From NCBI GenBank assembly GCA_002105175.1, contig MCGE01000013.1:744001-808000 (forward strand): a stretch of DNA of 64,000 nt, written 5' to 3'. The notes under the pieces are model-generated. The model searched no databases. It saw only the letters and a program-made list of their open reading frames with translations, and had not been told where the DNA came from. The DNA is from Absidia repens. Its lineage: Eukaryota > Mucoromycota > Mucoromycetes > Mucorales > Cunninghamellaceae. Positions within the stretch are counted from its first letter, which is position 1. The number at the start of each line of letters is the position of its first letter. Positions 2,954-55,000 of the stretch are shown here, piece by piece. The position numbers and the translations under genes were made by a program.

Positions 2954-5668
2954 TTGGCTAAGCTCTCTCATGTCTTTTACTTGGATTCCCTTACCCCCCT
3001 TCCATCCCTTTCCCATAGTGTATCATTTTTATTCTATTTTTTATTACCAGTTTAGCACCCCTCACCCCCTGTTTTTTTTTTTACACATATAATTACAGCC
3101 TTATTAGTGTTAATTTTTTATTTGTTAAAGTATTTTAATAAAAAAAAACAAAGATATTTGAATGAATCATTCATATGTGTTGATTTTGTCTTATTGAATG
3201 CTTGTGCTGTCAAATATAGATGCTATGAAGCATTTCAGCAAGTACGTGAAGTAAACCTTAGTTGTTGCAATTTTTTGTATAAACATTCTTACACTAGCAA
3301 AAATTGATCTGCTATACGTTTGCGGAAACGATGTTAAAGAGTATACATATATATATACGTGTGTGCGTGTGTGTTTGTCTCTTTTTGTTTTCAACGAAAT
3401 TAGACAGCCCTACCGTTTCGCATCTTAATAGATGGCCCCTTGGAATTCAACTGGATTTTTTTTGGGGGAAGGAAAGGATGGGGATTTATTGTACCAAATG
3501 CAAATATAATAAATAAACAAAAAACTAACAAGTTGGGTATCTACGATATGTTCAATCTAGTTGAATTGAAGCTGGCTGCACAACCAAGACTGGTTAATAT
3601 GAATGGTAGAGTGGGTTTCATATCAAGCGACCTGGAACTATCAACCCGTCACTAGACCTGAATGATCTGGTGCAAGTAGTCATAAATAAGCTTAAAAAAA
3701 GTGCAAAACGTTCTATAGCAGCGGATTCATATACAAAAAAACTTATATTTCTTTTTATGACTGGTTACGTAAGTACATGGTTATTTTGATGGTTAAGTGA
3801 CTTAAGCCTGGAACATTTCCTGTGTACGGGACAAGGAAGTTGTTAAAAGTTGATGAGCTCTAGAGCACATGCTTTGTAGGACACACACAAGACAGATACA
3901 ATAGCGACTTTATTTAGTACGCGATGAGTCAGAGGATGGTTAATAAAAAGGACATATTTTATTGAAGTATATTATTGATGAGTAATAAAACTAACGACGC
4001 GGGATCCATTATAAAAAGGGATCTATTGGAAGAAGCATGAGGAATACTAATGTGCGATTTTGGAAAAGGTCAACACTAATGTAAGGGAATAATTGAAAAA
4101 TTGGAAAATGGAAGCCAGTATATAGTGTTGTACAGGGCATGGTAGCTGCTAATGGACATCTGTTCTTGAATCGCAATAACAGTTAAGACTAATCAAGAGG
4201 GTAACGGTAATAAAAGAGGAATCTATTACATGAGACATGAGAGAGACTAATGGGACATATTTCATTGAAGCAGGTAAAAAGAGACATGTTTTATTCAGAT
4301 GCAAATATAAACAATGGATAACCTAATACAATGCTAAGCTAATGAGGTAAGCCAAAAAGCCAAATAATGGTATTCTAAATCCTGAATCCAAAATGAAAGG
4401 GTTTTCTCATGCATCTTGTAATCGCTGAGCTGAAACCCCTTGTAAACTAGTCCTGACACTAATCTAAGTCCATCACAACCTCAAAAAGGTACAAAGATGA
4501 AGAAAAAAGAAAGAAAAAGGAAAGAAAAAAGAAAGAAGAAAGAAAAGAAAATAAATGAAAGAGCGACGAAATAAATATACACGTGGGCGGCATTTGAAAT
4601 GACTTCCTTTTTGAATCACGTTTGTGATTTTTCTGTCGATGGCCACAAATAGGGAACCTCCCCCCCTTTTTTTGACAACAATCAACTCGATGCAACATCA
4701 TCAGCATAATAATTATCTTCCCATTACAGTATCTGCCGTCATTCCAATCGGCAAAAATAAGCTGGAACATATTCAGCCTATCATGCAGACATAATTTGGG
4801 CTACCCCTTCAAAGTAGAATAGTTTGCCACTCACGATCGGCACGGTAGAATGGTTTATGTTCTTTGATTAGATTAGTTCATCTAAAGTTATGTTCATTCT
4901 ACAACAAGATAACCCAACCATCATACACTCTACACTCACCCATTCGTCCTCCTAATTGCCTCGCATTTTAGTCTGTGTGATAGTATTGCCATTAAACCCG
5001 TTTAGTGTACTGTAGTTGCCATAATTTATATTTACATTGAATAAAATATGTCCAGTGTTTTCTCTTTCAGATAGTTTTTCATTAACTCATTTTCCGTATT
5101 TAAACATATCCACACGGTATGTACTGTATACTGCTTGTGCGTATTGAAAAAAAAAAAGGCTAGGTATGAGATGACATCGATTAATTGTCGCTCACAGTAC
5201 CCCGTCTACTGTACGATACCAAGTTTCTTAATATAGGAGTGAGTGTTATTCCTTTGAACTGGTTTAAAAATTGAGTAATGTAAAACTATGAACAAAAAGC
5301 TGAAGGACGCACAAAAAAAAAAAAAAAAAAGAAAAAAAAAAATCCTGTCATAAGCATTTTCCAGAAGATCTAAATTTTTTTTTACGTTCTTGTTGAACAG
5401 CACCCTAATAGATAATCATCGCTTCATTGTCCCACGTCATGTAGATCTACCCCTCAAACACATCAAATTACGCCAGTCTCCACATCCATTGTATCTTATC
5501 AAAACAAATACATGCACAAATAGGAAAAGGATAACATAGTTTTATTGAAGCATCTAAAAGTAATCATAAATTGAAGGGTATAGAAAAATAAAATAATAGA
5601 AAGGGGGAGGGGGGATAAACTATAAAAAATAAGCTTTGAGGGGGGGGAGAAGGGGTAATAATAACAAT
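2954..5668. other. Gene-poor spacer containing repeat copy R1
   Basis: No intact gene. It holds the 3' flank of the polyphosphatase gene, repeat copy R1 (listed separately), a purine-rich AG tract at about 4498-4570 and AT-rich sequence up to the end of the next gene. A-rich runs occur at 5145-5158 and 5316-5342. Frames longer than 60 codons here are low-complexity. Confidence 0.6.
3560..4600 (-). repeat. Dispersed repeat copy R1
   Basis: This is one of six copies of a dispersed element in the window. Read on the minus strand it starts with the E-box-like end (plus-strand CACGTGGGCGGCATTTGAAA, near 4580-4600). A purine tract follows, then the conserved core at about 4380-4475 with stem arms near 4396-4407 and 4430-4441. 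A tail carries repeated TATTTTATTGAAG-like units. The far end (3560-3720) matches copy R2 and keeps a coding-like trace on the plus strand, for example VVINK followed by a lysine-rich stretch. No terminal repeats or intact ORF were found. Confidence 0.75.
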
Positions 5669-7541
5669 CTATCGTAAAGAGCCCACCATAGACTTCCATT
5701 TTTCCACTTCAATGAAGATCCGGGGCACCGAAAGCATTCCATATTCTTGACTAAAGGCCTGAACCAAATCACCAAGAGCCTGTTCTGCCTGCTGGGTGAC
5801 AATAGGATCGGATGTCATCTTATGGCCAAAGTATAGAATAGTACATGCGGCTGAAATGATATCAATCAGCTAACACAAAAATAATAATAATAATAAAAAA
5901 AAAAGAGTAAGTTTCCTACCATGTTCCATGTATCCCGCTTTTTTTTTTTTTTTTTTTTTTCCCACTTACTTCGGGTAATAAACATCGATGATTCAACTTG
6001 AAGGAATACAAAGCCACTTGGATCAATTTGAAGGCAGCCAACATGGAGCTATGTAGCGATTGTTCAATACGATTTTGGGTCGTGGTGGGCACCGAGAAAT
6101 AATCCGTCACCTGATCATCCAAAAACCACCGATCGTCCTTTTCAAATACATCCATCATGTCCGCTTCATATCGATTGAGAATGCCAGCCAAGTAAAGGGT
6201 CTGGAGTCGTAATTTTTGCCAGAGTGGTGGAGTAGTCATAGTGGGATTGGCGCTGGTGTCATTATTATTGTCGTTTTCGTCCATCATTGACATACTTTCT
6301 TCAATCCAGTCTTGGAGCGATTTGACAGATGCTGATTGCTGAATCAATTCCCAACCTTTGATTTCATAATACACCCAGAGCCGTTGTTGATACTTTAGTT
6401 GATCATAGTCATGACCAAAGGACGCTGAAGAGGAGGAATAGGGCGTCGATGTCATAGTAGTCGTAGTCGATAAAGAAGGTGACGATGCAGCCGATGTCCT
6501 ATCACTTCCTGGCTTGTACATATTGATATCGTTGTGCGATGATTGTGATGGTGACGACGAGTTCTTGTGTGATGGCTTTTTTGGTTTTTTCAAAGTGACT
6601 TGTCGACAACACGAGGTTGAATCTGCGCTGGTATTCGTCAATGGGGAAGTCGTCGCTAATTCGATACGTCGGAACCATGCACGGAAAGCCCACCATTTTG
6701 AGTGATCTAAACATTCAATATGCCGTTTCGCCAACCAAAAATGTGTCGAGACCCCGCCATTTTTGTTGTTACCTCTACCGCCTTCTTGGCCAAGTTGTTC
6801 CTGTGGTACCAACGAGCAGTATAAGTGCATCGTCACCAACGCTTCCACCGTACTTGTCGTCACCACATCAAATTCCACTAAATCACAAGCCAGTTGATAG
6901 CAGTCCTGAGCGAGAGGAATCAAATAAGGTTGGTTGAAGTCTTCAGGGTGGCAGACTGCCCCATGGAACGCACTATGAGCGAAGATGGCATACATCAATC
7001 CAGGTAAAAGGTTTCCATCACGATAAGTTTGTAAAAATTGCTCTGGATCACGCCACGATGGACAAGAGGTGCAACAGGCAAGATGTAGCTGTATCAAAGG
7101 TTCAAAGATGTTGGGTGGGTATTTCGATTGAATAAACCGTTTTGCTGCCATCACCGGGTCTTCATTGTTGAACGTCGGATATTGTGGTGGTGGTAGTTGG
7201 TGGCCTTGCTGAATCGCATCGACTGGAGTCACTGGAATCATATCAGCATCTCGAAAGCTACTATTTCGTCTGTTGTATCCATAAACACCATATGCATCAC
7301 CAGCATTCATCAAGGAAGATCCAAAAACATTGCTTTCAACGGCGGCGGCTACTGGCGATGGCAACTGTTTCTTGAGATCACTAAGTGTACGATAAAGTTG
7401 GCCAAGAGTTCGTATGTTTGTTTCCACTTCGACAAGAGATCGTTTTCTTTCTTTCACCACCCAACCTTCAGGCAAATTCAGTTCACTTGATTGAGATAAC
7501 AAAGAGACATCTAATACCATTGGTAAAGGGCCACGAGTCAT
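5669..7541 (-). CDS. Fungal-specific transcription factor domain protein without a Zn2Cys6 cluster
   Basis: Two exons on the minus strand: 7541-5970 and 5869-5669 (590 aa). A 100-nt intron with GTAAGT removes an in-frame run of lysine codons. The middle of the protein has the helical fungal_trans layout: an early helix near FIQSKYPPNIFEPLIQLHLACC, then LPGLMYAIFAHSAF, STVEALVTMHLYC and WAFRAWFRRIELA. Long Ser/Thr-rich linkers follow, and the C-terminal helices contain RLWVYYEIKGWELI. No Cys6 cluster is present in the protein or in the roughly 200 bases upstream. It may therefore act without its own zinc cluster, or an upstream exon was missed. Its target is unknown. Confidence 0.7.
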
Positions 7542-7789
7542 ATTGAGTCAAGTAAAGGTGGAATATCAAATAAAAAAGGAAATAAATGAATAGGGGGGGG
7601 AGGGAGAGGAGAGAGAAAGAGTATGGTACTAAAGGAAGGAATAGAGGAGGAGACAAAAAGAAAAGAAAGAGGAGAAGGAATGGATAAAATATTTTTTTTT
7701 TATTTTCTGTATTTCCAACATTGTGCAACAAAAATATAAACTAAACCCAAGGTGGCGTTTCAGTAACCCCGATCATCGTTCATGCAGGC

Positions 7790-10700
7790 TTATTTCCGAT
7801 TCAAAAACGTCGATAAAGGAGTGTTCGTTGATGTTGACGATGTTGATGATCTATCTCGTGATGTCGATGATGAAGTGTTAGTATATGATCGACGTTGGTG
7901 TTGTTTTTCTTCCTGTTGATGGTGGTCATTTAAGTGAGTTGATCGAGTTGTGGTAGGTGACAAGCTTGTAGATGAGCGAGCTGATGACTAATGGATTTCA
8001 TGGGAGAGAGATAATTAAGGTGAGTATAAAGTAAATCTTCTTCTATTTTTGTTATAAACTTACTCTTCCACGGTCAGTCATAGGCCCAAGGTCAATATAG
8101 CCACCACTTTGATCACTGTCGTCAGAATAAAAACCATCAGGCCCACCTTGAACAGATTGTTTCAGCATATTGATTTGTCTGACCAAAGGATCCAAATCAC
8201 GTGCCATAGCTGCCAGGCTATCATGACGAGCTTGTTGAATTTGTCGCTGGACTCGTTCATATTCAGATGTTGTTGATTGTAGTTCCGTCTTTTTCTTGGC
8301 GAGTTCCACGGCCACTTGATTATTTTCTTTGCCAAGTTGCTTCACCAGGGTTTCCAAGTCATCGCGTTCCTTTGTCAGTCGTTCAATATCGGCCACCAAG
8401 CGTTGCTGTTGTTGTTCTTGATGATAAGAAGTCGCACCCTTATCTTCTTTGCTGTTGTCATCGCCACCACCTGATGTGTTGTTGTCCAAATGCTGCACCG
8501 CGCGTAATATCAAGTCTTCAATCATCTTGTACATTACCCCCGTGTAGTCTTCCAAATGACCTCGCATCCCAGACATGGCCTTGTCGATATATCCTCTGGC
8601 GTTTTCTTCATATCGTTTGAGTTTTTCTTCATTTTGGTGAGGATCATTCCAATTGACATCCAAATGACTGTTGAAGGCATTTTTCACTGCACGACGGACA
8701 GTTTCTTCTAATCCAGATTGACTTCCACCAAAACGATCCAGTACACGTAAGGTGCGTTCCATAAATCCACGCGTGCCGATCACCAGTTCCCGAATATCTT
8801 CATCCTCCATGGACCCATGGCCCAGGTTTTGCATCTCCGCCAAAGAGTCGCCGCCTCCATCGGAATTGGATTTCATGAGTTGAATACGGTGCAGTCGTTG
8901 GTCGATAGTCGCCATTCGATCGGCCAGTTCGTCCAGATGGTGTGACACGTCGGGCACCACAATATCGTCTACTTGTTGAATAACATGTTGGAAGAGTTGC
9001 CCAAGGACCTTGAAACTCTTGTCATATTCTTCACGGCTTTGATCCTGTCCATCCTTCAAAGCATCCAAATGGGTTTCCAGAGTAGACAAAATGTACTTTT
9101 GGTGAGCTTGAGGATCTTGCGTGCTTTCCATCATGGTAAATTCCCCCTTTCCACTGCTGCTGGCATTCTTTGTGGCTTTCACTTGATCCAGTATCTTTCC
9201 TTGCATGTCATCCAACCATTGCTGTTGCTGCTCCACCATGTTCTGCGCATGCCTCTTCTGTTCGTCTTGCCATACCTTGATCGCGTCTTCAATTGCAGCA
9301 GAATCATTCTTGACCACCGTTTCCAGAAGTGTTGTTTGTGAAGATTGCAGGTCCGCCAAGATAGATTGTAATTGACTGTAATCACCCAGAGACGATTCCC
9401 GCATGTTTGCAAATTCAGATTGGAAGGTGTCCAGTAATCGAGCACGATCATCGCCTTCTACCTCCAGTAGCCTGACAAGATCATTTTGCAATTCAGTCCA
9501 ACCACGTCGAGCATCATCAAAAGTATCCATTAATTTGGCCACCCAGATTTGATATCCAATACATGACTTTGGAGAAGAGGATCCTTGATTTGATCACGCA
9601 ATGATTCCAGGTGATATTTCACATCACGAATGACCATCATACCACCATCATCGTCACTACCCATAGAAGCATTGGCATGTTGTTTGATATGATTTCGACG
9701 ACCGCCACTTCTGCCACCACCACCACCACCACTGCTGCTGCTGTTACTGTTGCTGACGTTATGATAAGATGTTGCTGCGTTCATCATTCGCCATTGCTGT
9801 TCTTTTTCATCCAAGAGCCGTTCTTTTTCATCCAAGAGCTGTTCCTTTTCATCCACAAGCATATCCTTTTCATCCAAGAGGTGGTCCTTTTCATCTTCAA
9901 GTACCGCCACACGTTCACGCCAATCATGCGCCTGTTCTTGACAATCTTGCGCCTTTGCTTGCCATGTCATTTTCTGTTTCTCAAGATCATCCGCCTTCGA
10001 TCGTGATTCCGCCAGATCTTGCTCGGCTTGTTCCAGTTGCTGACGTACATGTTCCAATTCACTAACCAGACCAGATTCACGTGCAGTATGTTCACTTGCC
10101 AAAGAGCGTTCCCGTTTTTGTGCTTCGGTGAGTTCTTGACGCAATAAAGTGTTGTCTTGTTCGAGACTAGCATTGGTAGCTTGTAGTTGACGGTTGAGTT
10201 GTTCCATGGACACCGTGCGTGATTGCAGTTCGCTGTGAGTGGCTAATGAGACCTTGCCCATGATGGAGGTAAGGGAGTTGATCCAATCCTTGCGTGTGGT
10301 GACATCGTCCGTGGCCAAAAGAACATCATCGCGTTTCACCAGCAGTCGTAGTTCCCACTTGATACCAGGTCGATAGTCTTGCTTTTTGGGTTCCACTTCA
10401 ACAACTTCACTCATATCATAAGTATGGATATGATTGGCAAACTGTAAACACAAAGTGGTAGTTAGTAAAAGAAAAAAAAATCGCAAGGCTATTTATTCTC
10501 CAGTATGTACCTTGTCGTCCTTGTACAAATAAAGAGCACCAGGTTTGATTGCATTTCCATGTTTGGCTACAGCATATACCGGTCGCCATTGCTAGAATAT
10601 TCATATAGAAGAGAGGAATGAGGAATAATCAAGACAAAGAAAAAAAAAAAAAAAAGGAAATAAAAAATTACCATCAGACTATTTTTTTTATAAAGCCAGC

Positions 10701-11427: not shown

Positions 11428-12012
11428 TGAATAAATAAAAAAAAATAATAATTGTGGAAGGAGAAGAGTAATAGAAATTGATGCATATTTATCCTTGACC
11501 TTTTTTTTTTTTTTTTTTGTTTACCGCTTGCCATAATGGGAACAATGGTAAACAACCTGTCTTATTTGAGATGATATGTACTCTATGATAATAAATAAAA
11601 ACATAAAATAAAAAAACATTACATACGAGTCAGTCAACATAAACACATTACCCATCGAAAAAAAAAACATATTAGAAATAAAGAAGACATAGAGACGAAA
11701 GATATGATTTTGTACTGTCTTTATTGTGTATACCAAGTAGAATAAAAAAATAAACAAAGTAAGAAATATAATCTATACATAAGTAGCAAAATAAAACAAA
11801 ACAAAGAGAAAATGGGTATGAATAAATCATCCCGTGCGAGCGAAGAATAAAAGAGAGAAAAAAAAATGTACAGAAGAATAAGATGGGTAATGGATAATTG
11901 ATAAATATATACTAATGTCCACGAAAGAGAAGATAATGAATGAATGATTTTTAAATAAATAAATAAAGCGAGAGAAAGAGGGGGGAGGGGAGGGGAATAG
12001 TCCATTGAAGGA
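11428..12012. other. Spacer between the PH gene and CCR4
   Basis: AT-rich spacer with an A run at 11501-11518 (plus-strand T's). It should hold the 5' flank of the PH gene and the 3' flank of CCR4. A possible upstream start for the PH gene (ATGGCAAGCG followed by GTAAAC, near 11526-11535) was seen, but it does not join in frame to the next exon. Nothing else is recognised. Confidence 0.5.
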
Positions 12013-22668: not shown

Positions 22669-23404
22669 TCATCGAGACCATAGGTAGTGAATTGAGTTCT
22701 TGGGTCCAGAGATCTTTTCCGCCATATCACTTCTATAAGCTTTGTCAACAAACTGCTGATAGCTGTCGATAATGGTCTGGCTACTGTCAGTATCACCTTC
22801 ACCGCGTTCTGCTTTGTGGATAAATCGTAATTGCATTTGTTGTACACACCGAACGGCTTCAGTAGGGTCTTCATTTTTTGCATCCGTATCGTATGACACC
22901 AAGTAGCTGACTGTTTTTTCCAACATATCATCCTGACACCCTAAAATCTGTTGATAAGGACATGACCAGTTTGTGATGTAAAGCAAAGCCTGCAAATTGA
23001 AAACCAAATAATGGAAGGGGCGAGTCCGTGCGCTTTCCAGAGGTTGATCACCCGTCTCCATGTTGATCTGCTGCGGTAGGGTGGATTGTAAAAAGTGGCA
23101 TGTGAGGTCTTTTAAAGGAGCGGGAAGGTGGTCACTTGGTGTTGTCGAAGGAAGACCAAACGTAGAAATCACCATGATAAGCTGTACCATATACCAGGAC
23201 GCATGATTATTTATTGTTGCTGCTTCCGCACGTCCAATTTCACTTGTCAGTAACCAATGTCCATATTGCTGAAACCATGAGGTGATCGCACCCGATATTC
23301 GAGCATAACCTGCAAACCCGTAGAGCATCGGTATCACATTCGCTACCCGCGCCAATCTATTCACGAAGACGAATCATCCTTAGTTCATCATATTTGGCTA
23401 TTTG

Positions 23405-24316: not shown

Positions 24317-24823
24317 AATAAAGTAACTCGTTGTGGGTTTTCAGAATCGAGAACGAAGCATTCATTATACCAAAATGCATGGGTATGATACTAGTTTTAT
24401 TCTACTTTTATTTGACTGATAGACGCTTTTTTCCTCAATGAATACATGCTGAAAACTGAAGCACTTGCCATTTTTTCGACGACGCAATGGTTTCATAGGA
24501 GCCATTTTGAAACGCTGCTATTTTAGGCACCAATATTTCTGCATATCGCACAGACTTCCATGAGGAAGAAAGATATGACCCAGTTCACCAAAAGTGTTAT
24601 GTAAAATATTCTTAATCGTACGGGAGGACATGGTCCACGATACTTCCACGTTGCACTCCCAATTTCAAAAAATATGTCGCGCGGGATTTAAAGATTATCA
24701 TATCTTCAATTGATTTTCTGAGTGCCAGGAGGTGGATGGTCTTTGATGGAATTTGACACCCCCTACCATTTACATCATTGGAACCGGTACCTTGGGGCAT
24801 AACTGGCTTTATTTTGGGGTTTC

Positions 24824-24828
<5 letters not shown>

Positions 24829-24859
<31 letters not shown>
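24829..24859. repeat. (TA)n microsatellite
   Basis: About fifteen TA dinucleotides. A similar array lies in the first intron of the RSC9-like gene (about 18009-18038). Confidence 0.85.
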
Positions 24860-24862
<3 letters not shown>

Positions 24863-24919
24863 GCATGTGCAAAAAACTACAAAATACATAATAAAAATAT
24901 AAGCTTGATATATACAGTG

Positions 24920-25985
24920 TCCAGTCTTGTGAAGACTCTGCTGGCAGCATGGTCTTAACTGGTTGATATGAGTGGTAGAGCAAGAATAGTTCCACTTTTC
25001 ATATTAATTGTTTGAGCGCCGTTAACCTGTTATTAAGCCTTAAGGAGATGCGACATGTGGTCATAGATAAGCGAAAATGCAACTGCAAAAGCATCTATAG
25101 AATCAGCTACATACGCAGCAATACCAAGACTCAATTATGTGATTGGCCAAGCAATAGAACGGTCATCTTTGATAGTAAGCGGCACAAAATTGGCAACCCG
25201 CTGCTGAGCCTTTACGGGGTGAAAGTAGTCAAAATGAGGGAAGTAGAAAGCAAGTGTTTAGTAGGACACTCATAAGACAACTAAGCAACATTGTTCACTA
25301 TTAAATGGATCTGAGTATATTCAATAAAAGGGACATATTTTATTGGTGCATTTTGGCAGATACTAAAACTAAAGGTGTGGGATTCATTGTACAAGGGATT
25401 TTGGAAAGGATCTGTTGGAGGAAATATGGATAAAGCTGACATGAGATTTAGATGGATGGTCAACACTAAGATAAAAGGAATATTGTAAAATGGAAACTAC
25501 TATACTGTATAAGGCATGGGAAATGAAAAAGGGTCATCTTTATTGAAGCACAACAAACAATCAACACTAATCAAAAAAGGATGATGGTAGTAATCAAGGG
25601 ATCTCTTCATCCACGATATGAGATAGACTAACGGACCATATTTTATTGAAGCATGTTGAAAAAGACATATTTTATTGAGATTTTGATACAAATTATAGAC
25701 ATATTAACACCAACTAAGCTAAGGAAGGCTTCAAAAAGTCAACTAACTAATGGTGCTTCCAAATCCTGAATTCAAAATGAAAGGGTTTCCCCATGCATTC
25801 TTGTAATCCCTGATCTGAAAACCCTTTAAAACTAGTCCTGACACTATTCTAAGTCCAAAATAATTCCGTAGAAGTTGAATGGCGAAGAAAAAAAAAATTA
25901 ATTAAAGAAAGAGAGAAAAAAGAATGAGAGCGAAAAAATATAAAAATGGGGTAAACAGTAGTTCACGTGGGCGGGATTTAAAATA
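24920..25985 (-). repeat. Dispersed repeat copy R2
   Basis: Same orientation as R1. The end motif CACGTGGGCGGGATTTAAAA is near 25965-25984. The core with stem arms is at about 25780-25830, and TATTTTATTGAAGCATG-like units fill 25320-25690. The distal part (24930-25320) aligns with R1 at 3560-3720 and carries an open plus-strand frame of about 87 codons (25012-25275) containing HVVIDKRK, matching R1 VVINKLKK. This shared stretch looks like decayed coding sequence of the element. Confidence 0.75.
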
Positions 25986-26899
25986 ATTTCTATAGTCTCT
26001 TATAAGCGATTTTTTTTTCCCTTGACAAACAAGGGTTCGTTCTTTCTTTAAGGAAGGAATCACGTAAAATTGTTCCTTTTCATCTAACGTACGTGGTCAA
26101 AGTTTTTATGATCAAGTAAACAAAATATCCTTATCATTTTCTGTGAGAGACAACTCTGGATGTTTTTGGTAAACTGTACCACATGTATGGCGGAAAAAAA
26201 TTGCTCATAATGAAGTTGTACATAGCATAGAAATGATAAAATACAATAGACAAACATAATGATATACTCGAGGTGACAGATAAATGTATGTTGGATTTTT
26301 ATTTTATTTTAATAAAACGAGTAAATACAAAAAAAAAAAAAAAAAAAAAAAAACTAAATGGTGCGGTAACATACTTGACTATACTAAAGAGATTTCCAAT
26401 GAAGTATCGACATTTCGACCCATTCTTGTTTCCTAATCCCTGTAACTGCAATTCAGATAATCTTGGAGTCAAGCCCAGACGTGCTGAGAACAACCAAATG
26501 TGTGTGTGTGTGTGTTTCCTTAAGGTTCATTGTCCATCCAATAGTGTTGTTGATTATCGTATTTTGTTGTCAGTAGTCCATTATCCATTTCTGCAAAGCA
26601 AAAGCAATACCATCCTGAATTTTATCGATTTGCCCATGACATTATCAAAAAGGATCGACGACACAATAAAGCACAGAGCACACGTCATGAGTACACGGTA
26701 GACCCATCATGCTCGAAAATGTTGATAAAACAATGGACAATAAAAAGTTCTACGACCACGATCAAAATATAGGGGTCAGTAAGCTGCCATTACCTGTGTT
26801 TTATTTGGATGTAAGATAAAGGGCCTTACCTTGACGTAAGAACCATACAGATTTGAAAATTCCAATACCTAAAGAATAATTTCTCATCAATCAAGAAGG

Positions 26900-33403: not shown

Positions 33404-33637
33404 ACTATATTCTATATTTATTGCTATGAATTTTGTTTGTCAATTAGGTGTGCGCGTATATATTTTATATATATGTAGTAATTCACAATAACGATATCAA
33501 TGGGAAAACAAAATTACGTCGTTATTGTGGATAATATCGTTTATTCTTTTGTGTGTACTATCTTTTCATTTGTTATATTCTTTCCATCAAAATAAAAAAA
33601 AAATGGAGAACCGCAGTTGCCGGGAAGCCACAAAGAA

Positions 33638-34530
33638 TATTTCAAATCCCGTCCATGTGATTTTTTATTCTCGTCCTTTTTTTCCTTCTTTTTTTTTCTT
33701 CACCATTCAACTTCTTTGAGATCATGGTGATCTTAGATTAGCGTCAGGACTAGTTTAGAAGGGTTTTCAGCTCAGGGATTACAAGATGCATGGGGAAACC
33801 CTTTCTTTTTGGATTCAGGATTTGGGGACCACCATTAGTTGGCTTTTTGAAGTCTTCATTAGCTTAGTTTAGTGTTAGTTTGTTGACAGTTTGTATCCAC
33901 ATTAAAATAAAATAGGTCTCCTTTTTACGTGCTTCAATGAAAAACGCCCCATTAGTCTTTCCCATGCGTTGTACAATAGATCCCTTTTTACAATTACCCA
34001 TTTAGATTAGTGTTGACAGTTGTGCTTCAATAAAAGATATACATGTATGGTCTCCCTCATGTGTTGTCTGTTGTGCACAGTATATTAAGCCTCTTTTTAC
34101 AATATTCACTTTATATTAGTCCTGACCATTCTTCAGATCCCACAATAGTGCCCCGCAAGAGATCCTTTGTAAACTGCTTTTGATATATGTTGCTAGATTG
34201 AGTTGCGCTTGCAAATATTTCGTCAATCGACTCTTTTTTTTTTTTTTTTTTTTTTTTTGCCTAAAACACATTATCGATCCTGTAGAATGACTCTATGTAC
34301 CTTCTAGACCCTATTAAACCTCAAACCAGCGTTTAAAAGCCCATTGAAAAGTCAATTTTCCTTGTTACGTTTAACCATCTATCACTCCATACCAATCCCA
34401 GCTCCCTGGCCTTAAATGAAATGCTCTCCCTAGGCTCACTCTAGCTCAGAGCGCTAACTCTCATCTATATGAAGAGGGATCCACCTAAATTTCATCCAAC
34501 CTCAGTCCACTCCCCCGCACTCAAAATAGA
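33638..34530 (+). repeat. Dispersed repeat copy R3
   Basis: Forward orientation: TTTCAAATCCCGTCCATGTG end (33640-33659), pyrimidine tract, then the core at 33730-33840 with stem arms AAGGGTTTTC (about 33759-33768) and GGAAACCCTT (33794-33803). Two diverged internal units of about 100 bp follow (CTTCAATgAAAa ... GATCCCTTTTTAC). The distal part (34340-34500) matches the distal part of R4, not that of R1/R2. Confidence 0.8.
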
Positions 34531-34805
34531 TTATGCCTAAGAATTAGGATAATTCACAGCCAGCTATCAATGTTTTCCAGAAAAGTTTTGTTATTCTGGA
34601 TATCGTTAATGTGGGATCGTATTTGCATATACAATAATGTAGTCAGTATTGATGATGATAAAGAAAAAATCCAAACTTTATTATAGATATATGTATATAT
34701 GACAAAAAAAACAATAACAATCAACCAGATATGGAATAATAACAAAGACAACTATATAACGAGGAGGGGAGAAGATGGAGGGGGGATAAACAATACATAT
34801 GTTAT

Positions 34806-44032: not shown

Positions 44033-44043
44033 TTAAATCCCGA
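44033..44043 (-). promoter_or_regulatory. CGGGATTTAAA motif upstream of neurochondrin
   Basis: In gene orientation CGGGATTTAAA lies 100-110 bases before the start codon at 43933, as in the GLR1 promoter. Confidence 0.35.
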
Positions 44044-44577
44044 AAGCCACTCACTTCAGCATAGGGCGGGCAATACTCAGTCTTTGGACTCCCATATTCC
44101 TGATTTCTTGGTTAGATGGCATATGACGCTTTCAAATTGAGATGTGAAATACAAAAGTCACGTTGTACTTACCTTCTTTTTATTTTTATTTGTCTCATGT
44201 TATGAAAATTTGTTAACGTATCTACTTCTCTCTCTCTATGATATACATATTGCCTTCATCATCCCAAAGGTTTAATCTTCTTATTATTTTGATCCAGCTT
44301 GATACAAAACCCCTTTCCATTTAATTTTGGCCTTTTTTGTTCCGCTCATTGCTTTAAACAAGAGAATCGCATCTTACTGTCCAGTATATATAATGTGCGA
44401 GAGAAAATCTGGCTCAAGTTGATTAAGATTGAACAAGTGCTTTCTCCTAAAAGCTTTCCAATGCGTTTCCGCTATTAAATTTTTATGCTCCCATAACTGC
44501 TTATTTTTCAATGTTATCCTGTCTTATTTTCGCATTCATCCACAGTGACTAATGAGTCACCACAAAGAAAAAAAACA

Positions 44578-45600
44578 ATTCAAATCCCGCCCACGTGAAT
44601 ATTTATGTTTGCGTGGTTGGTTTTTTTTTTATTTTCTTTTTCCTTCTTCTTTCTTCTTTAACTCTTCACAGTTATGGCCCCTACGGGATTCCGGTAGACT
44701 TAGATTAGTGTCATAACTAGTTTAGAAGGGCTCTAAGCTCAGGGATTACAAGATGCATGGGGAAACTCTTTCATTTTGGATTCAGGATTAAGGACCACCA
44801 ATAGTTGTCTTTTTGGAGCCTCCACAACGTAGTTTAGTTTGTCCATAGTTAGTATATATATATGAAAAAAATATGTTATTCTTTGCTTGCTTCAATGAAA
44901 AATGTCCCGTTAGTTTCTCTCATGTCTTGCGTAATAGATCCCACTTTTATACCGTCGCCCCTTTAGATTAACGTTAACAGTTACTATTTTTACAATAAAA
45001 GATACCCATTTGTAGTCTTGCTCATGTATTGTATGTATTGTACAGTGTATTCCATCCCTTTTTTCAATGATCCCTTTAACTTAATGTTGAACATTCTTCA
45101 AATCCTCCATTAGCGTGTTTTTGATGTGTGTCGCTGACATGGGTTATGCCTGGGACGGCGTTCTGTTTTGTCAGGCGATTTTATTTTTCTACTATGTTTT
45201 GCTAGGATTTAGCGCAACCCCGGCGGCGACGTTGGGTAAAATGGGAAAGTTTAGTCACATATTTATATTTTGGCGAGGAGTATGATCTGGTCGGCTTTAT
45301 ACTAAAAGAGGTTGGTTTTGAGCCGGCTCGGTTTCTATCCAAACAAATATTAGCGTTTTCACTATCTTTGATTCTTTTTTTTAAAAAAAAAATTCAAGTC
45401 GATCGGCTTACTGGTTGGTGTGTTCAAAGGTCGATTTTCCCTGTTTACGTCTAACCATCTACACCTCCACATACCAATCCCACATTTTTAAATGAATTTT
45501 ATTCCTGAGTCTACTCTATCGTTTACACAATTAGCTCAAATAGTTATTTCACGCCTATGTTGAAAGGAATTCACCTCGCCCAAAATGGATGATGGCTAGA
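44578..45600 (+). repeat. Dispersed repeat copy R4
   Basis: Forward orientation. The end motif TTCAAATCCCGCCCACGTG is at about 44579-44597, the core at 44700-44815, two diverged internal units at 44880-45110, and a distal part at 45420-45600 that aligns with R3 (34340-34530). The stem is weaker here (AAGGGCTCT against GGAAACTCTT). The stretch 45130-45400 is not shared with R3 and may be an insertion. Confidence 0.8.
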
Positions 45601-46137
45601 AAGCCCAATAAAAATATTGTTATTCGAATGACGATATTTCGCCACCAACGATCAACGTTTCCCATGGAAGTGTTTTTATTTTAAGGATGTTATCGTTATT
45701 CTGCTTGTGTCCCTACTGTATGGTGCGACTCTGCAAGAACGAAAAGTAAACCTTAGATTGCCGCAATTCTTTATATTCAATTTCTAACAAATTTCACACT
45801 TACAAAAGTTACTCTACTCGGTGAGGCGAGAGGCGAGGATTTGTTGAAGGGGCAAGGCTTGGGACACTCCCATTTTACACTCCCAGTTTCAAAAAATAAA
45901 GGATTACATGGAATTCAAACATTCCAACGATTGCAAAAAAAAAAAAAAAAAAAAACCCATTAAACACGCACAATCATACTGTAGTATATAGTGAAGCAGT
46001 AAGTTTGTTTATTCAATTGAGGTTTGGTGAAATATATTGATATATAAATATGGAAAATTATAACTCATACTACGTGGGAAAGAAGGAGATTCTATGGTTG
46101 CTACTATATGTGGCAGTTAAGTGAAATAAGCTGAATC

Positions 46138-46240
46138 AAGTCTGTAGAATAGTCTACCGCAATAGAATGGTCTGTCGAATAGTGTACCGCAATAGAATAG
46201 TATGTAAAAATAGTCTATCATAGTAGAATAGTTTTGTCAT
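46138..46240. repeat. 30-bp minisatellite, three units
   Basis: Three tandem units of about 30 bp with the shared pattern GTCTGT-GAATAGTCTACC-CAATAGAAT, increasingly diverged to the right. It abuts repeat R5. Confidence 0.75.
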
Positions 46241-46259
46241 CCATTGTTCATTGCAGAAT

Positions 46260-46815
46260 AAAAAACTTTTATTGAATCATGATAGTCAATACTATACTAA
46301 AAGGAAAGAAGATGTAAAAATAGGGGCCGCTAATAGTAGTTGAGAGAGGTTCTTGTCTAGAAGAATGGTGTAGAAGAAGGAACGATGGAAAATAAAAAGG
46401 GAACTCCAAACTTCTAATGAAGTTTAAACAGACTTCATTTGGAGCAAACACACATTTTTTAAAGCAAAGACCGGTTTTACCGAAGTTGAGACAAGTTTTA
46501 TTAAAGCAAAGACAAGGTTTACTGAAGCAAACATATGTTTTATTGAAGAAATGAGACATACTAAGCTAATCAAGACATTTCCCAAGATCCTAGAACCAAA
46601 ATGAAAGGGTTTCTCCATGCATCTTGTAATCCCTGAGCTGAAAACCCTTTTAAACTAGTCCTAACACTAATTCAAATTCACCATAACCTCGAAAAAGTTG
46701 TATGGTGAAGAAAAAGAAATGAGGTAAAAAAGAAAATGAGAAGAAAAAGAGAGAGAGAAATAGAGGGAAAAAAAAATCGGGAGTAAACAAAACTTCACGT
46801 GGGCGGAATTTGAAC
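46260..46815 (-). repeat. Dispersed repeat copy R5 (short)
   Basis: Same orientation as R1 and R2. The end motif CACGTGGGCGGAATTTGAA is near 46797-46815 and the core at 46590-46690, with stem arms near 46602-46613 and 46639-46650. Four short tandem-like units with the consensus GGTTTtAtTgAAGCAAA occupy 46430-46555. It lacks the distal part present in R1 and R2. Confidence 0.75.
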
Positions 46816-47235
46816 TAAACCCATCGTCTCTGTGTAATTTTTTTTCTCCATTTTGATGGATACAGAAAAGAAACGCTCAATCTTTTTTTTTTTTTTTTTT
46901 TTTTTTACAACATTCAAAAACTTGTAATATCATCACCATGGTAAGTCCTTGTTTATTTCAGCAGTCGTCACCATTCAACGATGGCAGCATGGAGGCTTCC
47001 TCTTCGTTTTAGTAGGTAATACATTAGGCCGGTGATTGTACGTCAAATTAAGGGAATCTCATTTTTCAAAAGAAAAATTGTCCACGTGGAAATTCCGGTT
47101 AAATATTTATGAATGAGTGTAAAATAAATAGAAGTGAATTACACTAATAGTGGAACTTACATATACTCTTGAGATATGCTTTAAATGGTTCTCAGTGCAG
47201 CATAGGGGTCATTTTTGTCCCGGTCATATCATTCT

Positions 47236-47601
47236 TTATGTGAAGCTTGGGGAGACTTGAACTGCGATAGCGGAAAGGTTAATGGATACCCTTGAAACTG
47301 GATAGAAAGAGATAAAAAACAAGATGGCGGCCAAAGCAATAATGGTATTACTGCATCTTGCCCGAATGATGACCTGTATTTTTAATTCACTTTCACCGTC
47401 ACTCCATTTCATGATAAGAGCGATATCATATTGCACTTTTAGTGTAATTTTTAATTTTTCAGGTTCACTGAAAAATATAAAAGTAAAAATAGCTGATCCG
47501 AGAATACTACTTGGAGAAAATGGGCTGAAGGTCTTAAAAATTGTCATAAACGACAACCTGTGTTTCTTTATGAATTTCGGACCCATCTGATGCCAAAGCA
47601 A
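47236..47601 (-). pseudogene. Possible coding remnant with one membrane segment
   Basis: A 121-codon open frame on the minus strand with a protein-like stretch (KITLKVQYDIALIMKWSDGE) followed by a hydrophobic segment (IIALAAILFFISFYPVS). The upstream part of another frame (SDGSEIHKETQVVVYDNF) also looks coding. No family and no complete gene model. It could equally be chance. Confidence 0.2.
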
Positions 47602-48894
47602 GTATTGCCAGGGTGAGGGAGAGAACCATTACAAGTTAAAGAGCTGAATATGTAGATGCTTTTTAGTGGCAAGAAACATAAGTTGATTCATTATTTTTGT
47701 CTTATTATTCGATCAAGTAACATTTATTTAAACTGACAGCTTTTGAATAAATTATCCTTAAATTTCAAAGAAGACACCATGTCGGAGTTAGAATTAGTCA
47801 CTATTGTCCTGTTTAGGCAGTCCAGGCACGAACTGAGGTGATCGCATCAGATAAGCAAACCCTGGCCAAACCTAGGTAGTAAATATAGTATCATGGAAAG
47901 ATTGTCATCGATATTGTCTCGGCTCAAGAAACTTTTCTTTTGTTTTTAATTCATAGGGTGACTATGTATGACTCAGGTATAATACGCAATATAGTATTTT
48001 GTCACTTGATCTATGAAACAGAAAGCTGATATGATAGCAAAGAGAGAATAATTGTGTGCAGAGCAACATGACTTTTTTTTTGCGTTTTTGTATTAGAGTA
48101 TAGTACATATTTTATGCAATGCGGAGAGAAACAAGAAGATGATAGGCTCATAATTGTTGTTTTTCACACGAAAGGGTATTAAAAAACATTTAATGGGGAA
48201 AAAAAAATGTCGCCTTCCCTGCCCTCTCTAAATGGGGCTGGATGTTACCCCAGATCATACAATGTAAAAACTTCCCTCCCCACTAGTTTATCATATTTAC
48301 TGCAGTGCTTTAGATATTGTACCAAAAACATTCTAATTTCAATCATTATTTTATTTGGTATGGTTGTTTTCAAATAAGCAATTTAATTTTTTTTAATATA
48401 TTATACCCATATTGAATGCGCTTCCTCACAAACAGTTTGCTTAAAGAAATATTTCGTTCGATCGTGCATACAAGCGTTTTATTTCTTCTCAATTGATGGA
48501 TGAATGCTGACATCCTACCTGTCAAGATAAAAAGCACACTGCCCCATGTTTCAGCTGCAAACGTTTATTTGAATAGAGTCAGCTCTTTATAGACAGCTTT
48601 GCACGGATCCCTTTCTTATTTGGTAATCCGACCGAGATGGACTATGCGGTAAAGTGATCATCTTTTTTTCTCTCTATGATTTGGGACAACAAAAAAAAAA
48701 ATACCTGGGTGGGCCAATCAGTCTATATCTTTTTTCTTTTTATATCTAATGTTGGGGAGTCAAAATAAAATTGGGATCTGCTAATATATATTTATTTATC
48801 ACCCTTCATTTTTTTTTAAATTCCTTTTTCTTCTTCTTTTTTTTTTTTTTTTTTTTCTTGCTTCCCTTTTTTTCCTCCCAAACTAATTACTATT

Positions 48895-50085
48895 ATGACA
48901 GCATCTTATGGGTCTTTCTCTGTCTTTAAGCAAGATGGTATTCGTCAATTTTATTGCCGATGGTCTCAAAAAGAAGATGTTTTGTTGGTTGAGGCTGTTA
49001 AAAAATATGGGCCACATAAATGGTCTCTTATCTCACAACATGTTCCCAATCGAACACCTGCCCAATGTTCAACTCGATGGCATGGTGCCTTGAAGTAAGT
49101 GACGGGAGAAAATTGAAATACCGACTTCTGACATAAATAATCTCACACTTGTTTCTTTCTTTTCTTTTTTCTTTTTGTCGTTAGCTCCAAAGTACATAAA
49201 GGACGCTGGTCAACAGATGAAGACGCGATTTTATTGGAAGCAGTACGAAGTCATTTGCAGGAAGATTCAACCACCACCAGTAATTTACCATGGAACAACA
49301 TAGCACAGCATCTCTCTCATCGCACAGGAATTCAATGTCAATCACGGTGGACCGAAGCGTTGGATCCAGCTGTCAGAAAAGGGCGCTGGCACAAAGAAGA
49401 AGACGAACTTTTACGGCAAGCAGTTTCACAACTCGGCTGCTGCTGGATTCGCGTAGCTGGATGCATACCCAGTCGAACACAACGTCAGTGCCGAACACGC
49501 TGGAATCAAATCAAACATACTCGACGCCAATCAAATAAAAAGAACGCCAACACAACAACTACCACTAACAATAAAACAGTTCTGGACCAATCATCATCAT
49601 CATCATCATCATTATCATCAACATCAACATCATCATCAATATCATCATTATCACTATTAGGACCCTCATCATCACCACCTTCCTACTCTTCTTCTATGTC
49701 CACTTTATCACTTGGCTCCTACCCCACCACCACTACCAATCAATGCCGTTATAATACCAATACCCCGTCTTCTCCATCAGACTCTCCACCTCCCTCTACT
49801 CCTCCCACATGTATTCCGGCCATGATTATTCCCACTTGCTCAGATTTGCCTCTTTCGTTGTCTTCAACACCACAATCTACTACCTACCCAACATCCATTG
49901 CCTCCATTACTATTCCGAAAGACCCTTTTACATTTTTACTTGATCATCATATGCCATCTTCCATACTCGACAATCCAAATACTACCACTCTCTCCACCTC
50001 AACCCCTTCCTCTTCCTCTTCCTCTTCTTTGAATCCTATTCTTCGAGAGTTGGACCCTTGGTTCTATGATGGTCCATCTCATTGA
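48895..50085 (+). CDS. Three-repeat MYB DNA-binding protein
   Basis: Two exons: 48895-49094 and 49185-50085 (366 aa). Three SANT/MYB repeats are adjacent: R1 about residues 20-67 (RWSQKEDVLLVEAV... KWSLISQHVPNRTPAQCSTRW), R2 about 72-125 (GRWSTDEDAILLEAV... PWNNIAQHLSHRTGIQCQSRW, with an insertion before the second Trp) and R3 about 132-178 (GRWHKEEDELLRQAV... CWIRVAGCIPSRTQRQCRTRW). This R1R2R3 layout is that of c-MYB-like nuclear factors. The remaining 190 residues are Ser/Thr/Pro-rich, partly from ATC/TCA trinucleotide repeats, and may be an activation region. Targets are unknown. Confidence 0.9.
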
Positions 50086-50660
50086 TCCTGATCCTTCGCT
50101 GACTTAGTTTAGCTTAGTTTTTACTTTCTTATTTAATATTCATTTTACGCTTTTTATTTTATTTCATATATGATTAGTTTATATACATTCTATTTACACT
50201 ATTTTTACGCTTCTACATCCCCTCCCTCTCTTATTGCTTATATATTACTGTCATCAATCAATAAACAACTATGATTCTGTCTTCACTTTCTTGTCCTCTT
50301 TGTCTTCTTTCCCATTATGTAGCATGGATTACCATATTTTGTTGTTAGTTAGTAGACTATCTCTTCATCAACTATCATTGAAATGTTTGAATATATAATC
50401 ATAGAGAACTTGACATTTGTAAAATAGCAGCGTTGCTAACCTGTCATTCACACTATCATTAATATCAATCTATCACCGTTTACATACCAGTATCATTATC
50501 TTGTTACTATAACCGCATCACAATTCTAACACAAAAACGAAATAGACAAATACAATATATAAATACAAATAAAAATCAGGTTTGTTTTATTTTTATAGGA
50601 CTAATAGTAGCTCTATCAGTTCCACCCGCAAAAAAATAATCATACTAATTCTACACTACA
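50086..50660. other. Convergent 3' region, MYB gene / acyl-CoA ligase
   Basis: 3' flanks of both genes. Poly(A) signal for MYB at 50260. No gene was seen. Confidence 0.5.
50260..50265 (+). terminator. Poly(A) signal of the MYB gene
   Basis: AATAAA about 175 bases after the stop codon. Confidence 0.5.
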
Positions 50661-53021
50661 CTACAGTTTCGCTTGATTTTGTTGCTGTTGCTGTTCATGC
50701 TTGACCTGGTCACGAAGAACTCGACGAAGAATCTTGCCTGAGGCTGTTTTTGGCACAGTGTCAACAATTCTGATTTGACGAATTTGTTTGAAGGAGGCGA
50801 CTTGATCAGCCACAAATTGTTGAATCTGAGATACAATCTTGTCGGATGCATCAATGCCAGGTTTGAGTACCACATAGCCACGAGGTACTTCAGTAGCTTG
50901 AACTGAATCATACACACCAATGACAGCACAATCGTTGACAAGAGGGGATTTGAGCTATGAAAGATAATGATAAGTGGATATCCCGTTTTTTCCAAAAAAC
51001 AAGGAAGTGTTTTTTCTTATTACTTACAAGTATTCCTTCTAGCTCTGCTGGTGCCACCTATGAAATAGAGTAAAAACCAGTAAATATAAAGGATTTCGTT
51101 ACCCTAGCGGCTCGCACACATTATGTCAGCATATTTACCTGGAAGCCTTTATACTTAATCAGTTCCTTGATACGATCCACTATGTAAAATCGGTCCTTTT
51201 CATCAACCACGCCTACATCGCCAGTATGAAGAAAACCATCCACATCAACAGTATTTGCTGTGGCCTCCTTGTTCTTGATATAACCCTAAAAAAAAAAATA
51301 ACAGTAAGTGTGAGGTATCCGTTCTTTATCGTATCAACCATCAAGTAAACTTACCAGCATAATGTTGGGACCCTTCAACCAAATTTCACCTGGTTCATTG
51401 ACCTTAGCATCTATAATAAGTAAATTAACATTGAAAAAAACCTGCTGCACAAAAATACATAGTTTTCATGCTCGTTTACCTGATCCATCCTCCTTCACTA
51501 TACGGGCAATCATATTTGGCATCAATACACCACATGAACCTACAAAATAGCCGAAAAATAAGTCAGTCATCATAAAGTCCCAATTTGTTTCCTTTTCCCA
51601 TCCTACTTCCTTACCATGAGCAGTATCATTGACCAGTTCTGTTGTACCGGAGGGACTTGTTTCTGTGAGACCATAGCTTTGAGAGATCTTGATATTGGGG
51701 AACCGAGATGCAAACGCCGTAGACAATTCTCTGCTGAGAGGGGCGGCGGCACAGATAGCAAATTTGAGTGATGAGAGATCAAATTGAAGCACACGAGGAT
51801 CCTTTGCCAAGGCCAAAATGATGGGAGGAACAGTCCAAATATTGGTGATACGTTGGTCTTGGATTGTTTTCAAATAGTCCACAAGATCAAATTGGGACAT
51901 CAATGCCATCGACGTACCACGTCGAAGAGATACATGGAGCACAAGCAGCAGGGCGTATTGATGGAACATGGGAAGACAGTTAATACCCCTTCTGGTATTC
52001 ACATTTGGATCGTTGTAATCTTCCATGTACATAATCATGGCAGCGGCAGAGATGGCATTGGTGTGTCTGCAATAATAATAAAAGATGGTGAAATTTGATG
52101 TTAAAAAATGTCAACGTATGGAAAAAAAAAAATTGATAGGGAACTTACGAAGTCATCACCCCTTTAGATTTTCCTGTAATATATATATATATATAATTTG
52201 AAATGAGAAATTATTGTTGAAGATATGATGATGATCACAACTCATTTACTACCCAGCTCTTTTCAAAAAACTTACCAGTCGTTCCACTGCTAAAGCATAA
52301 GTAACAAGGACGAGAGCGTGCCTGTTCTGGTGTAAGAGGGGTTACTACAGCGCGACGTTCTTTCATTAGCACAGAAGTATACGGAAGAATCCCTTGAATC
52401 GTTTCTTGCCCAAACACCAAAATGTTGCGTTTTGGAATCCCCACTAACGCAGAGGCTTGTAAGGCCACATCGATGTTTTCAGGATGAGCCACCAGTACCT
52501 TTGCATCGGACAATTCCAGTTGATGTCTGAGTTCTTCTACTGAATATCTTGGATTACTTGGTGAGAGTACACCGCCTAATAGTAATAAAAAGAGAATTGT
52601 ATTAAACCAGGTCAGTGCGCACGATAATAAGAAGTATGTGTCCCCCCCCCTTTTACACTTACCAGCGGCAATGGCGCCTAATGCAGGAAAAGCAAAATCA
52701 ATCTATCCAACACACATACATATGAGTTTAGATAATTCAAAAAAAAAAAAAAAAAAAAGCGGGGAGGGGCTGACTTACTGCGTTGGGTGCAAAAAGAGCT
52801 AAAACATCACCAGTACCAAATCCAAAATAGTCTTGCAGACCAGCAGCAAACTGAAGAATACCATCCTTGACCTGACCATAGCTAAGAGATTGCTTGGTGT
52901 GGACATCATTAAAGAGCTCCTTGTCATCGGGTATCCTGTTTGGGTTTTCGAAGAGGTAAGGGATCAGACCTGTTTCCAAGTAGCTGATGTCTGGGAATTG
53001 TGATTTATAAAGCTTGACCAT
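50661..53021 (-). CDS. Peroxisomal 4-coumarate-CoA-ligase-like acyl-CoA synthetase
   Basis: Ten exons on the minus strand: 53021-52779, 52702-52663, 52575-52276, 52173-52149 (25 nt), 52066-51615, 51539-51480, 51410-51355, 51285-51139, 51057-51028 and 50954-50661 (548 aa). It activates a carboxylic acid to its CoA thioester with ATP. AMP-binding motifs: [59 protein letters not shown] and [15 protein letters not shown] (catalytic Lys). The protein ends in AKL, a type 1 peroxisomal targeting signal, so a beta-oxidation-linked fatty or aromatic acid substrate is likely. A poly-Gln stretch precedes that signal. The first three-codon match (MVKLYKS) fixes the start. Confidence 0.93.
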
Positions 53022-54375
53022 GTGAATTGAAGTGACTACTGCAATTAATAACAATTATAGTAAAAAAGAGAAGAAAAGATAAAGGTGAGTTGGAGAAGTA
53101 AGAGGGAAAAGGAATGAAAGAAACCCCAGAATCGACAAGAGTATTTATAAACTTTACCCCACACACACGATTTTCAAACGCAGGTCGTGAGTAGTAAGAA
53201 TGAGTAACGGGTATTCATTTGCTTTTCTCCTCATCCCACCATTGTCCAACGAAGGTGTCATCATAAACTAAAAATGCAGTCCAAGTACCACAAAACGCTA
53301 TTTTCAATATCATCATAAATAGTAAAAAGTGAGAAAGAAAAAAGAAATGTCAGGGAAATCCCAACTATTTTTTTTTTTTGGAAGACCGTCGCATTGTGCG
53401 GAAGTACCATTCACCCACGGTATGATAGTCCCCTTTTTTTTAATTTTGGAAACCTTATTTCGTAAACTTGGGGTGGGGAAATGATATGAATGAAGAAGGG
53501 AAAATGTTGATCCTTACTTCAACTGGGAAAGATATACTTTTTGACAGTGTGTACCTCCAATTAAATGCGCAAGGCTCCAGTATATTCACACCGAATGTGC
53601 AATAAAAGGTTTGCGGAATTTTAAAGATTCTCACACTTCCTAATATCTTAAAAAAAAAAAAAAACGTGGATGACTTTATTTTGTGAGCAAATGACTATAT
53701 GCTATTGTATCAACCTTCCCTCTTCATCGTAGGTCAATCTCCCTTTTTTCTTTCCCACGGGTTACTTTATCATTATTACAAGTGTCTAGCAACTGATGAG
53801 TCCCAAGACGTTGCTCAGGCAGTTATTTTCTGAGCGTTTTTATACGCGCCCATCACTGTTGAGCTTTTCATGCGTCCATCACTGTCATTTTTGAAAATCA
53901 CAAACTGCTGTATGCGGCAAATAATACCCAGTATTTATGCGTTTTTTCTAGATAATGTATGATACACACTTTTTTCCACCGTCCACACCTTTTTCTATAC
54001 ACATATGTACTGGGTACATGGCCAGTAGACAGAGTACAATGAACGACTGCCAAGTCCCAAGCGGGAAGTTTACCAAAGGATGAAAGAACGGAAGGATAAA
54101 TAAATAAATACATATACGTTTTACGGAAACGGAGAAGTTCTGCGCTCCAACCTCTGTTGTTTTCCTATACACATATGCTCTGTATACCATTTAGAAGAAG
54201 AAAATTTATAAAGCGGAAGAGTAATATAAGTGGTAGACTGCCTTTCAGAGTAATGGACCACAGTAGCTATATGAATGGGAAAACGAAGTTGCATAGTTAT
54301 AACTAGTAATATAGTTATTCTGATGCGTGTGGCCATGGCATGTCCATCAAGACAAAAGTGAGAAGCCATAGAAGA

Positions 54376-55000
54376 TATTTCAAATCCCGCCCACGTGTAT
54401 TTTATTTTGCCCATTTTCTATTTCCTTCCTGTCTTTTTTTCTTTTCTTTACCATCGTAACCTCTTTGAGATTATAATAATCTTAGATTAGTTTCAGGACT
54501 GGTTTAGAACGGTTTTCAGATCAGGGATTACAGCATGCACGGGGAAACCCTTTCATCTTGGATCTAGGATCTGAGGCCACCATTAGCTGGTTTTTTTGAG
54601 CTATCATTTGCTTAGTTAAATCTTAGTTTATCCTCAGTTTGTCTCTACGTCCTAATAAAAATAATTCTCTTTTTACATACTTAAATAAAAACGCCCATTT
54701 TTTGTTCTCATGTCTTGTGCAATATATCCCTTTTTATTACCATCTCCTCTAGATCTACTATCTATTTTTCAATAAAAGGTACGGCTTTAATCACTCTCAT
54801 TCCTTGTACTGCATTGTACAATATACCAGTTCCCTTTTTACAATTGTCCCTTTATATTATAGTTGATCATTTTTTATGTCACATATTAGTCTCCCTCACG
54901 CCATATCGAATATAGAATCCTTATTACAACGGATCCATCACCTTTAGTTTAGTGTGCACCATAATTCTCCATTAAGATTAATCTTTTCATTAACCATCCC
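54376..55000 (+). repeat. Dispersed repeat copy R6
   Basis: Forward orientation. The end motif TTTCAAATCCCGCCCACGTG is at 54378-54397 and the core at 54480-54595, with stem arms near 54508-54518 and 54542-54553. Two diverged internal units follow (AATAAAAACGCCC ... ATCCCTTTTTA; CAATAAAAGGTA ... TTCCCTTTTTACAATTG). The end is not sharp. Confidence 0.8.

Follow-up and report, generated by a model that had tools for sequence, protein, structure and literature searches.

A dispersed repeat family of Absidia repens whose internal core has decayed less than its flanks

The window analysed here is a 64,000-nucleotide stretch of the Absidia repens genome (assembly GCA_002105175.1, contig MCGE01000013.1, positions 744,001 to 808,000, forward strand), and it carries six copies, R1 to R6, of a dispersed repeat with a short, well-kept core. 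We consider it rather likely that the family is an old, extinct, non-autonomous DNA transposon resembling miniature inverted-repeat transposable elements (MITEs), in which the core and a motif, CACGTGGGCGGGATTTGAA, have been kept, probably by selection acting after insertion.

Copies at the locus and architecture of the element

Seven of ten scanned open reading frames (ORFs) of the window match Pfam families, including HMG-box, Myb, Neurochondrin and Sybindin; the DNA is therefore eukaryotic. A search for the motif (19 bases, at most two mismatches) returned six sites in the window, three per strand, and none in 100 shuffles, and the copies share 69–86% pairwise identity over alignable stretches. 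The six-copy dispersed repeat of the initial annotation, with three copies in each orientation, is thus real. All six cores lie outside ORFs of at least 150 codons, which agrees with the earlier placement of the copies between genes. The features are as follows.

3224..5407, + strand: R1, complete element of 2,184 bp with terminal repeats at both ends; three family profiles match in order
3224..3250, + strand: R1 left terminal repeat, 5 of 27 sites mismatched
5381..5407, - strand: R1 right terminal repeat, 3 of 27 sites mismatched
4389..4450, + strand: R1 62-bp conserved core, 5 of 62 sites off consensus
4580..4598, + strand: R1 end motif CACGTGGGCGGCATTTGAA, from the motif search
24574..26183 (right end approximate), + strand: R2, complete element of 1,610 bp with decayed terminal repeats at both ends
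About 25745-25853, + strand: R2 core, with its motif at 25964-25982
33577..34603, - strand: R3, middle segment 33577-34139 and second-subfamily outer module 34248-34603
33725-33840, - strand: R3 core, with its motif at 33641-33659
44527..45658, - strand: R4, middle segment 44527-45104 and second-subfamily outer module 45199-45658
44699-44806, - strand: R4 core, with its motif at 44579-44597
45719..47006, + strand: R5, left terminal repeat from 45719, middle segment 46282-46884 and start of the right arm to 47006
46580-46683, + strand: R5 core, with its motif at 46796-46814
53830..55780, - strand: R6, right-arm fragment 53830-53902, middle segment 54322-54874 and left arm 55025-55780
54479-54586, - strand: R6 core, with its motif at 54379-54397

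The extents first given to the copies hold in part, R1, R2 and (by profile) R6 reaching further. The left-arm profile match of R1 begins at 3028, outside the terminal repeat, and the first profile columns have no visible conservation; since these outermost columns fall outside the element in R1, the left-arm edge of R6 is uncertain.

R1 and R2 are complete elements bounded at each end by a 27-base inverted terminal repeat, TATGGTGCAGTTCAGCAAGAACGTAAA. These repeats, at 3224 and 5407 in R1, at 24574 and about 26183 in R2, and at the left end of R5 (45719), overturn the earlier statement that no clear terminal repeats exist. Both terminal repeats also occur in six fetched elements of 0.85–2.3 kb, giving eight elements with both ends overall, which span 847–2,322 bp. 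The fetched loci L024, L032 and L055 have two ends each (1,135, 847 and 2,289 bp), and three facing pairs, found among 100 listed places of the 204 terminal repeats, delimit complete elements of 1,736, 1,881 and 2,322 bp, inside which the left arm, middle and right arm all lie. When the flanks of copies were searched for TATGGTGCAGTTCAGCAAGAACGTAAA with at most eight mismatches, it was present in 19 of 123 real sequences and in 2 of 123 shuffled ones.

The internal order is fixed: left arm, core, purine tract, motif, right arm; and the left-arm, middle and right-arm profiles match in one order and one orientation, R1 and L029 being examples. It follows that CACGTGGGCGGGATTTGAA is internal to the element. 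The initial annotation had taken it for a shared end because 1,453 of 2,060 pairwise alignments running through it stop within 50 bases of its start. That assignment does not survive: 70 of the 2,060 alignments continue at least 350 bases past the motif, up to about 960, and profiles recover the right arm beyond it.

Two kinds of outer module are found. That of R3 and R4 differs from those of the other copies and, as read from the alignment, defines a second subfamily, whose termini were not found. No terminal repeats were found for R3, R4 or R6, and for R5 the left one was located and the right terminus was not.

Several other element types came under consideration. A foldback element centred on the motif was suggested by a segment that the two arms share in inverse orientation, and was dropped once terminal repeats were found outside; the inverse segment covers only about 60–120 bases, whereas in a foldback element long inverted arms make up most of the length. 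Short interspersed nuclear element (SINE), solo long terminal repeat (LTR) and DIRS assignments were likewise dropped as terminal repeats lie outside, none of them having been put through a tool of its own. The inversely shared segment, around CTGAATAAAATATGTC, occupies left-arm model positions 213-288 and right-arm model positions 335-460, as if both sides of the element ended in the same polyadenylation-like signal. The left arm (e.g. window 4056-4290) also contains degenerate direct copies of a unit of about 100 bases (GGTCAACACTAATCTAAAGGG..., by eye in the profile consensus), and in R5 a 30-bp tandem repeat of 3.1 copies lies at 46139-46232, after the left terminal repeat and before the middle segment.

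As the initial annotation had reported for the copies, no transposase is seen in the complete elements: L067 to L073 hold no ORF longer than 134 codons, and none of at least 150 codons lies inside R1 or R2, a 153-codon ORF from 26240 falling outside R2. Strictly defined MITEs are shorter than about 800 bp. Because the complete elements, at 847–2,322 bp, exceed this length, we file the family as MITE-like.

Copy number and uneven decay

The genome comprises 47.37 Mb in 79 contigs. Words of 25 bases were counted across it with at most three mismatches, using reversed words as controls. The core word matched 3,469 times, the end motif 1,421, the flank 1,059 and the terminal repeat 204, with all reversed controls at 0; exact matches numbered at least 100, 66, 38 and 2, respectively. 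The genome-wide count that the initial annotation had proposed as a check thus yields thousands of copies. The terminal word may be rarer partly since one subfamily seems to lack the terminal repeat. Assuming one consensus, the counts translate into divergences of 17% for the flank, 15% for the end and 29% for the terminal repeat; the end estimate exceeds the 7–8% obtained from alignments, the word including six further bases. The core word was absent from viral and prokaryote contigs, where such DNA is not expected. In the sampled sequence (the window plus eight 10-kb stretches), family profiles cover about 13% (13.2%), a figure that is somewhat high, since two stretches were chosen for a core match and the left-arm profile has columns outside the element.

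The loci used for alignment were fetched in two ways, 20 by a core query and 29 by an end-motif query, and hits of at least 200 bits without the end motif at five or fewer mismatches (4 of 69) were excluded from the neighbourhood work. Among window and random copies, pairwise identity by 30-column block is 84–90% in the core blocks (columns 331–390), 75–81% in the motif block and 40–78% in the others, in line with the earlier observation that a core stayed alike while the flanks drifted. Core and motif are two separate kept blocks, and a drifting tract of about 70–130 bases lies between them.

To reduce bias, a sample was also located by the left arm, which gave 13 hits in the window and the eight stretches, one of them cut by a locus edge. 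The full core is kept in 10 of the 12 assessable hits; one keeps nine columns and one is without the middle segment. In these elements, sites off consensus amount to 38 of 629 (6.0%) in the core and 12 of 171 in the motif, as against 710 of 3,108 (22.8%) in the left flank (core versus flank, Fisher p = 2e-26). Across all 97 aligned copies the corresponding values are 7.8% for the core, 7.1% for the motif and 20.3% for the flank. Decay of the core several-fold below that of the flank of the same copies indirectly supports a retained function.

Age of the copies and competing explanations

The initial annotation had offered recent spread or a retained function as the source of the strong core conservation. 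Recent spread is not supported for the copies tested, and function gains only indirect support through the lower decay just described. None of R1, R2 and R4, used as queries, has a close sibling among the scored hits. For the 296-bp left arm of R2, the 39 other scored hits (scoring covered the top 40 of 1,213 candidates) all lie at 73–78%; the best match to the R4 end (122 bp) is 76% over 121 bases or 85% over 78; and the outer 421 bp of R1 match at best 67% over 281 bases or 93% over 45. Among the sampled copies, no pair exceeds 84% over at least 250 bases, except one at L013. Terminal repeats tell the same story. Left and right repeats differ at 8 of 27 sites in R1, 11 in R2, 13 in L055, 4 in L024 and 11 in L032, that is, at 47 of 135 sites in these five elements, and in three elements picked for well-kept ends they differ at 6, 5 and 3 of 27. 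Given the missing siblings and the diverged terminal repeats, most copies look old, and the state of the core is not accounted for by recent spread. Most element ends have aged like the flanks and unlike the core.

The alternative that survives best, though we judge it improbable, is that the core was kept only in the transposing lineages: many diverged source elements would have shared a core needed for movement, and every copy would have decayed evenly since insertion. The two outer modules, which imply diverse sources, speak for it, as do the four elements whose terminal repeats differ at just 3–6 of 27 sites, and the diversity of the flanks could predate the insertions. Such a history nevertheless predicts groups of siblings, which R1, R2 and R4 lack among the scored hits and which the sampled pairs, save that at L013, do not form. 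Under it, terminal repeats should also have been preserved no worse than the core, yet the terminal repeat is the rarest of the four words counted and differs at more than a third of the sites compared in the five elements above.

We regard it as less probable again that gene conversion or recombination among copies has made the core uniform and that the core has no function. Thousands of near-identical targets are present in the genome, and L013 indicates that local inverted duplication or conversion happens. Conversion would, however, be expected to carry neighbouring sequence along, and here two kept blocks are split by a tract that drifts.

A structured RNA gene, or a small exon that codes for protein, is a very unlikely identity for the core. 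The former idea draws on an inverted pair within the core, AAGGGTTT/AAACCCTT, visible by eye; this stem carries many uncompensated changes, RNAalifold gave no base pairs on either strand across 74 copies, and Rfam returned no match at gathering score, with weak ones only under relaxed settings. We therefore rejected a structured non-coding RNA gene. A protein-coding core was tried and rejected as well: a short frame starting from ATGCATGGG runs for 18 codons in 34 of 63 copies and for 10 in 16, and any given reading frame across the core is open in at most 33 of 66 copies. Finally, it is hardly credible that fetching copies through their core produced the conservation as an artefact, despite the core-fetched loci and a left-arm profile seeded from core-bearing copies, as the same pattern appears in window and random copies, the word counts are independent of fetching, and copies lacking the core or nearly all of it exist (2 of the 12 assessable).

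A number of observations weigh against selection on an old transposon family as we read it. The left-arm test is not fully blind, 5 of its 13 hits being the profile's own seeds. Among the eight that were not seeds, five retain the core, with 14 of 310 sites off consensus, two are without it or nearly all of it, and the last is the hit cut by a locus edge. The flank of R5 aligns poorly (133 of 268), which inflates the flank figure. L024, L067, L068 and L069, the elements with few terminal-repeat differences, look younger. At L013 (C34:50000-54000), positions 820-1505 and 2506-3191 form an inverted pair, 96% identical over 688 bp and about 1 kb apart; the pair stems from a recent event, either inverted duplication or conversion, and some copying is therefore recent. 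Relative to the window ORFs of at least 150 codons, the copies show no consistent place or direction. Nor was a transposase partner found among 41 DDE_3 matches, the nearest of which is 11.2 kb away from any of the 100 terminal repeats listed out of 204. Searches for DDE_1 and CXC domains gave 0 matches, as did their controls, so that absence is not shown by them. The target-site duplication that the initial annotation had suggested looking for gave no signal, flank matching at 2–12 bases in the eight elements being no better than under mismatched pairing.

By eye, R1 alone has 6 of 8 flank bases matching. TA forms the first two bases at 7 of 8 left ends and the last two at 4 of 8 right ends; as TA is part of the terminal repeat at many ends, it is indistinguishable there from a target duplication. 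Because the DDE_3 matches lie at least 11.2 kb from the listed repeats and no duplication is measurable, we assign the family to no superfamily.

Promoter-like layout, known systems and possible meaning

On the strand opposite the motif, the kept positions show TTCAAATCCCGCCCACGTG and an AATATTTATT run, then a pyrimidine tract and CTTCACC, and after these the core and a conserved GAATAAAA. The tract is 91% pyrimidine on average (minimum 81%, 82 copies), and GAATAAAA, which is well kept, follows the core at a distance of about 90 model positions and CTTCACC at one of about 200. In its order of signals (E-box, TATA-like run, pyrimidine tract, core, AATAAA), this layout is similar to a compact promoter unit for RNA polymerase II. 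It would be in keeping with a small fungal promoter of that polymerase, accompanied by a polyadenylation signal.

Under the MITE-like reading, a transposase that has since been lost, or that escaped our searches, would have mobilised the family through its terminal repeats, possibly inserting it at TA sites. Host factors may bind the motif and the core, in which case selection would keep both after insertion. The retained part could then work as a small RNA polymerase II promoter unit, and many relics might act as dispersed promoters or as starts of short non-coding transcripts. Going further, we raise only tentatively the possibility, drawn from sequence patterns, that several thousand promoter-like modules derived from a dead transposon, roughly one per 14 kb, have their 62-bp core, CACGTG box and GGCGGGATTTGAA under purifying selection and make up a regulatory or non-coding RNA network in what is likely an early-diverging fungus. 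The GGCGGGATTTGAA element we take to resemble the CDE/CHR pair of animal cell-cycle promoters.

With Tc1/mariner-type elements and MITEs the family shares short inverted terminal repeats starting with TA, a high copy number and non-coding content. It differs in reaching 2.3 kb, longer than typical MITEs, and in that its internal core has changed less than its terminal repeats; moreover, no TA duplication separable from the repeat can be shown, and no DDE_3 transposase lies near the listed terminal repeats. Tc1/Mariner is reported to be the largest group of transposable elements in sequenced Mucorales genomes (PMC7928374), and a TA target would fit this prevalence. SINEs and solo LTRs are alike in being dispersed and non-coding with promoter-like content; in contrast to them, eight elements have inverted termini on both sides, and no tRNA-like head, poly-A end or long direct repeat was seen.

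The nearest known case is that of the CERP2/CELE2 MITEs of Caenorhabditis, which also carry short motifs. About one third of germline-specific promoters in C. elegans are reported as co-opted from these MITEs with their motifs conserved, and HIM-17 binding and promoter activity were measured there (PMC9757741). Host and sequence differ, and the Absidia family is known from its sequence. Nematodes thus offer a precedent for large-scale co-option of MITEs (PMC9757741). Among fungi, a study on Fusarium oxysporum places MITEs in effector gene promoters (PMC3599309), a likeness in that fungal MITEs are tied to promoters; those are tied to a small gene set, whereas here thousands of copies are dispersed, with no consistent gene position in the window. 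In the open-access literature, which was the scope of our search, no description of such a family in Mucorales was found.

If the core is functional, a single family covering about an eighth of the sampled sequence would supply thousands of similar sites and would illustrate a genome reusing its dead transposons. If it is not, the family would be a clean case of a short segment that resists decay without selection.

Two minor observations concern other features. Other transposons in this genome look young: 150 scored reverse-transcriptase matches fall on many contigs (e.g. C10:560049 and C17:301244), many of them in long open frames of 800–1,689 codons with identical scores. In the window, a minus-strand ORF at 22669-23373 has a Pfam match to an alginate-lyase family (E = 2.7e-18).

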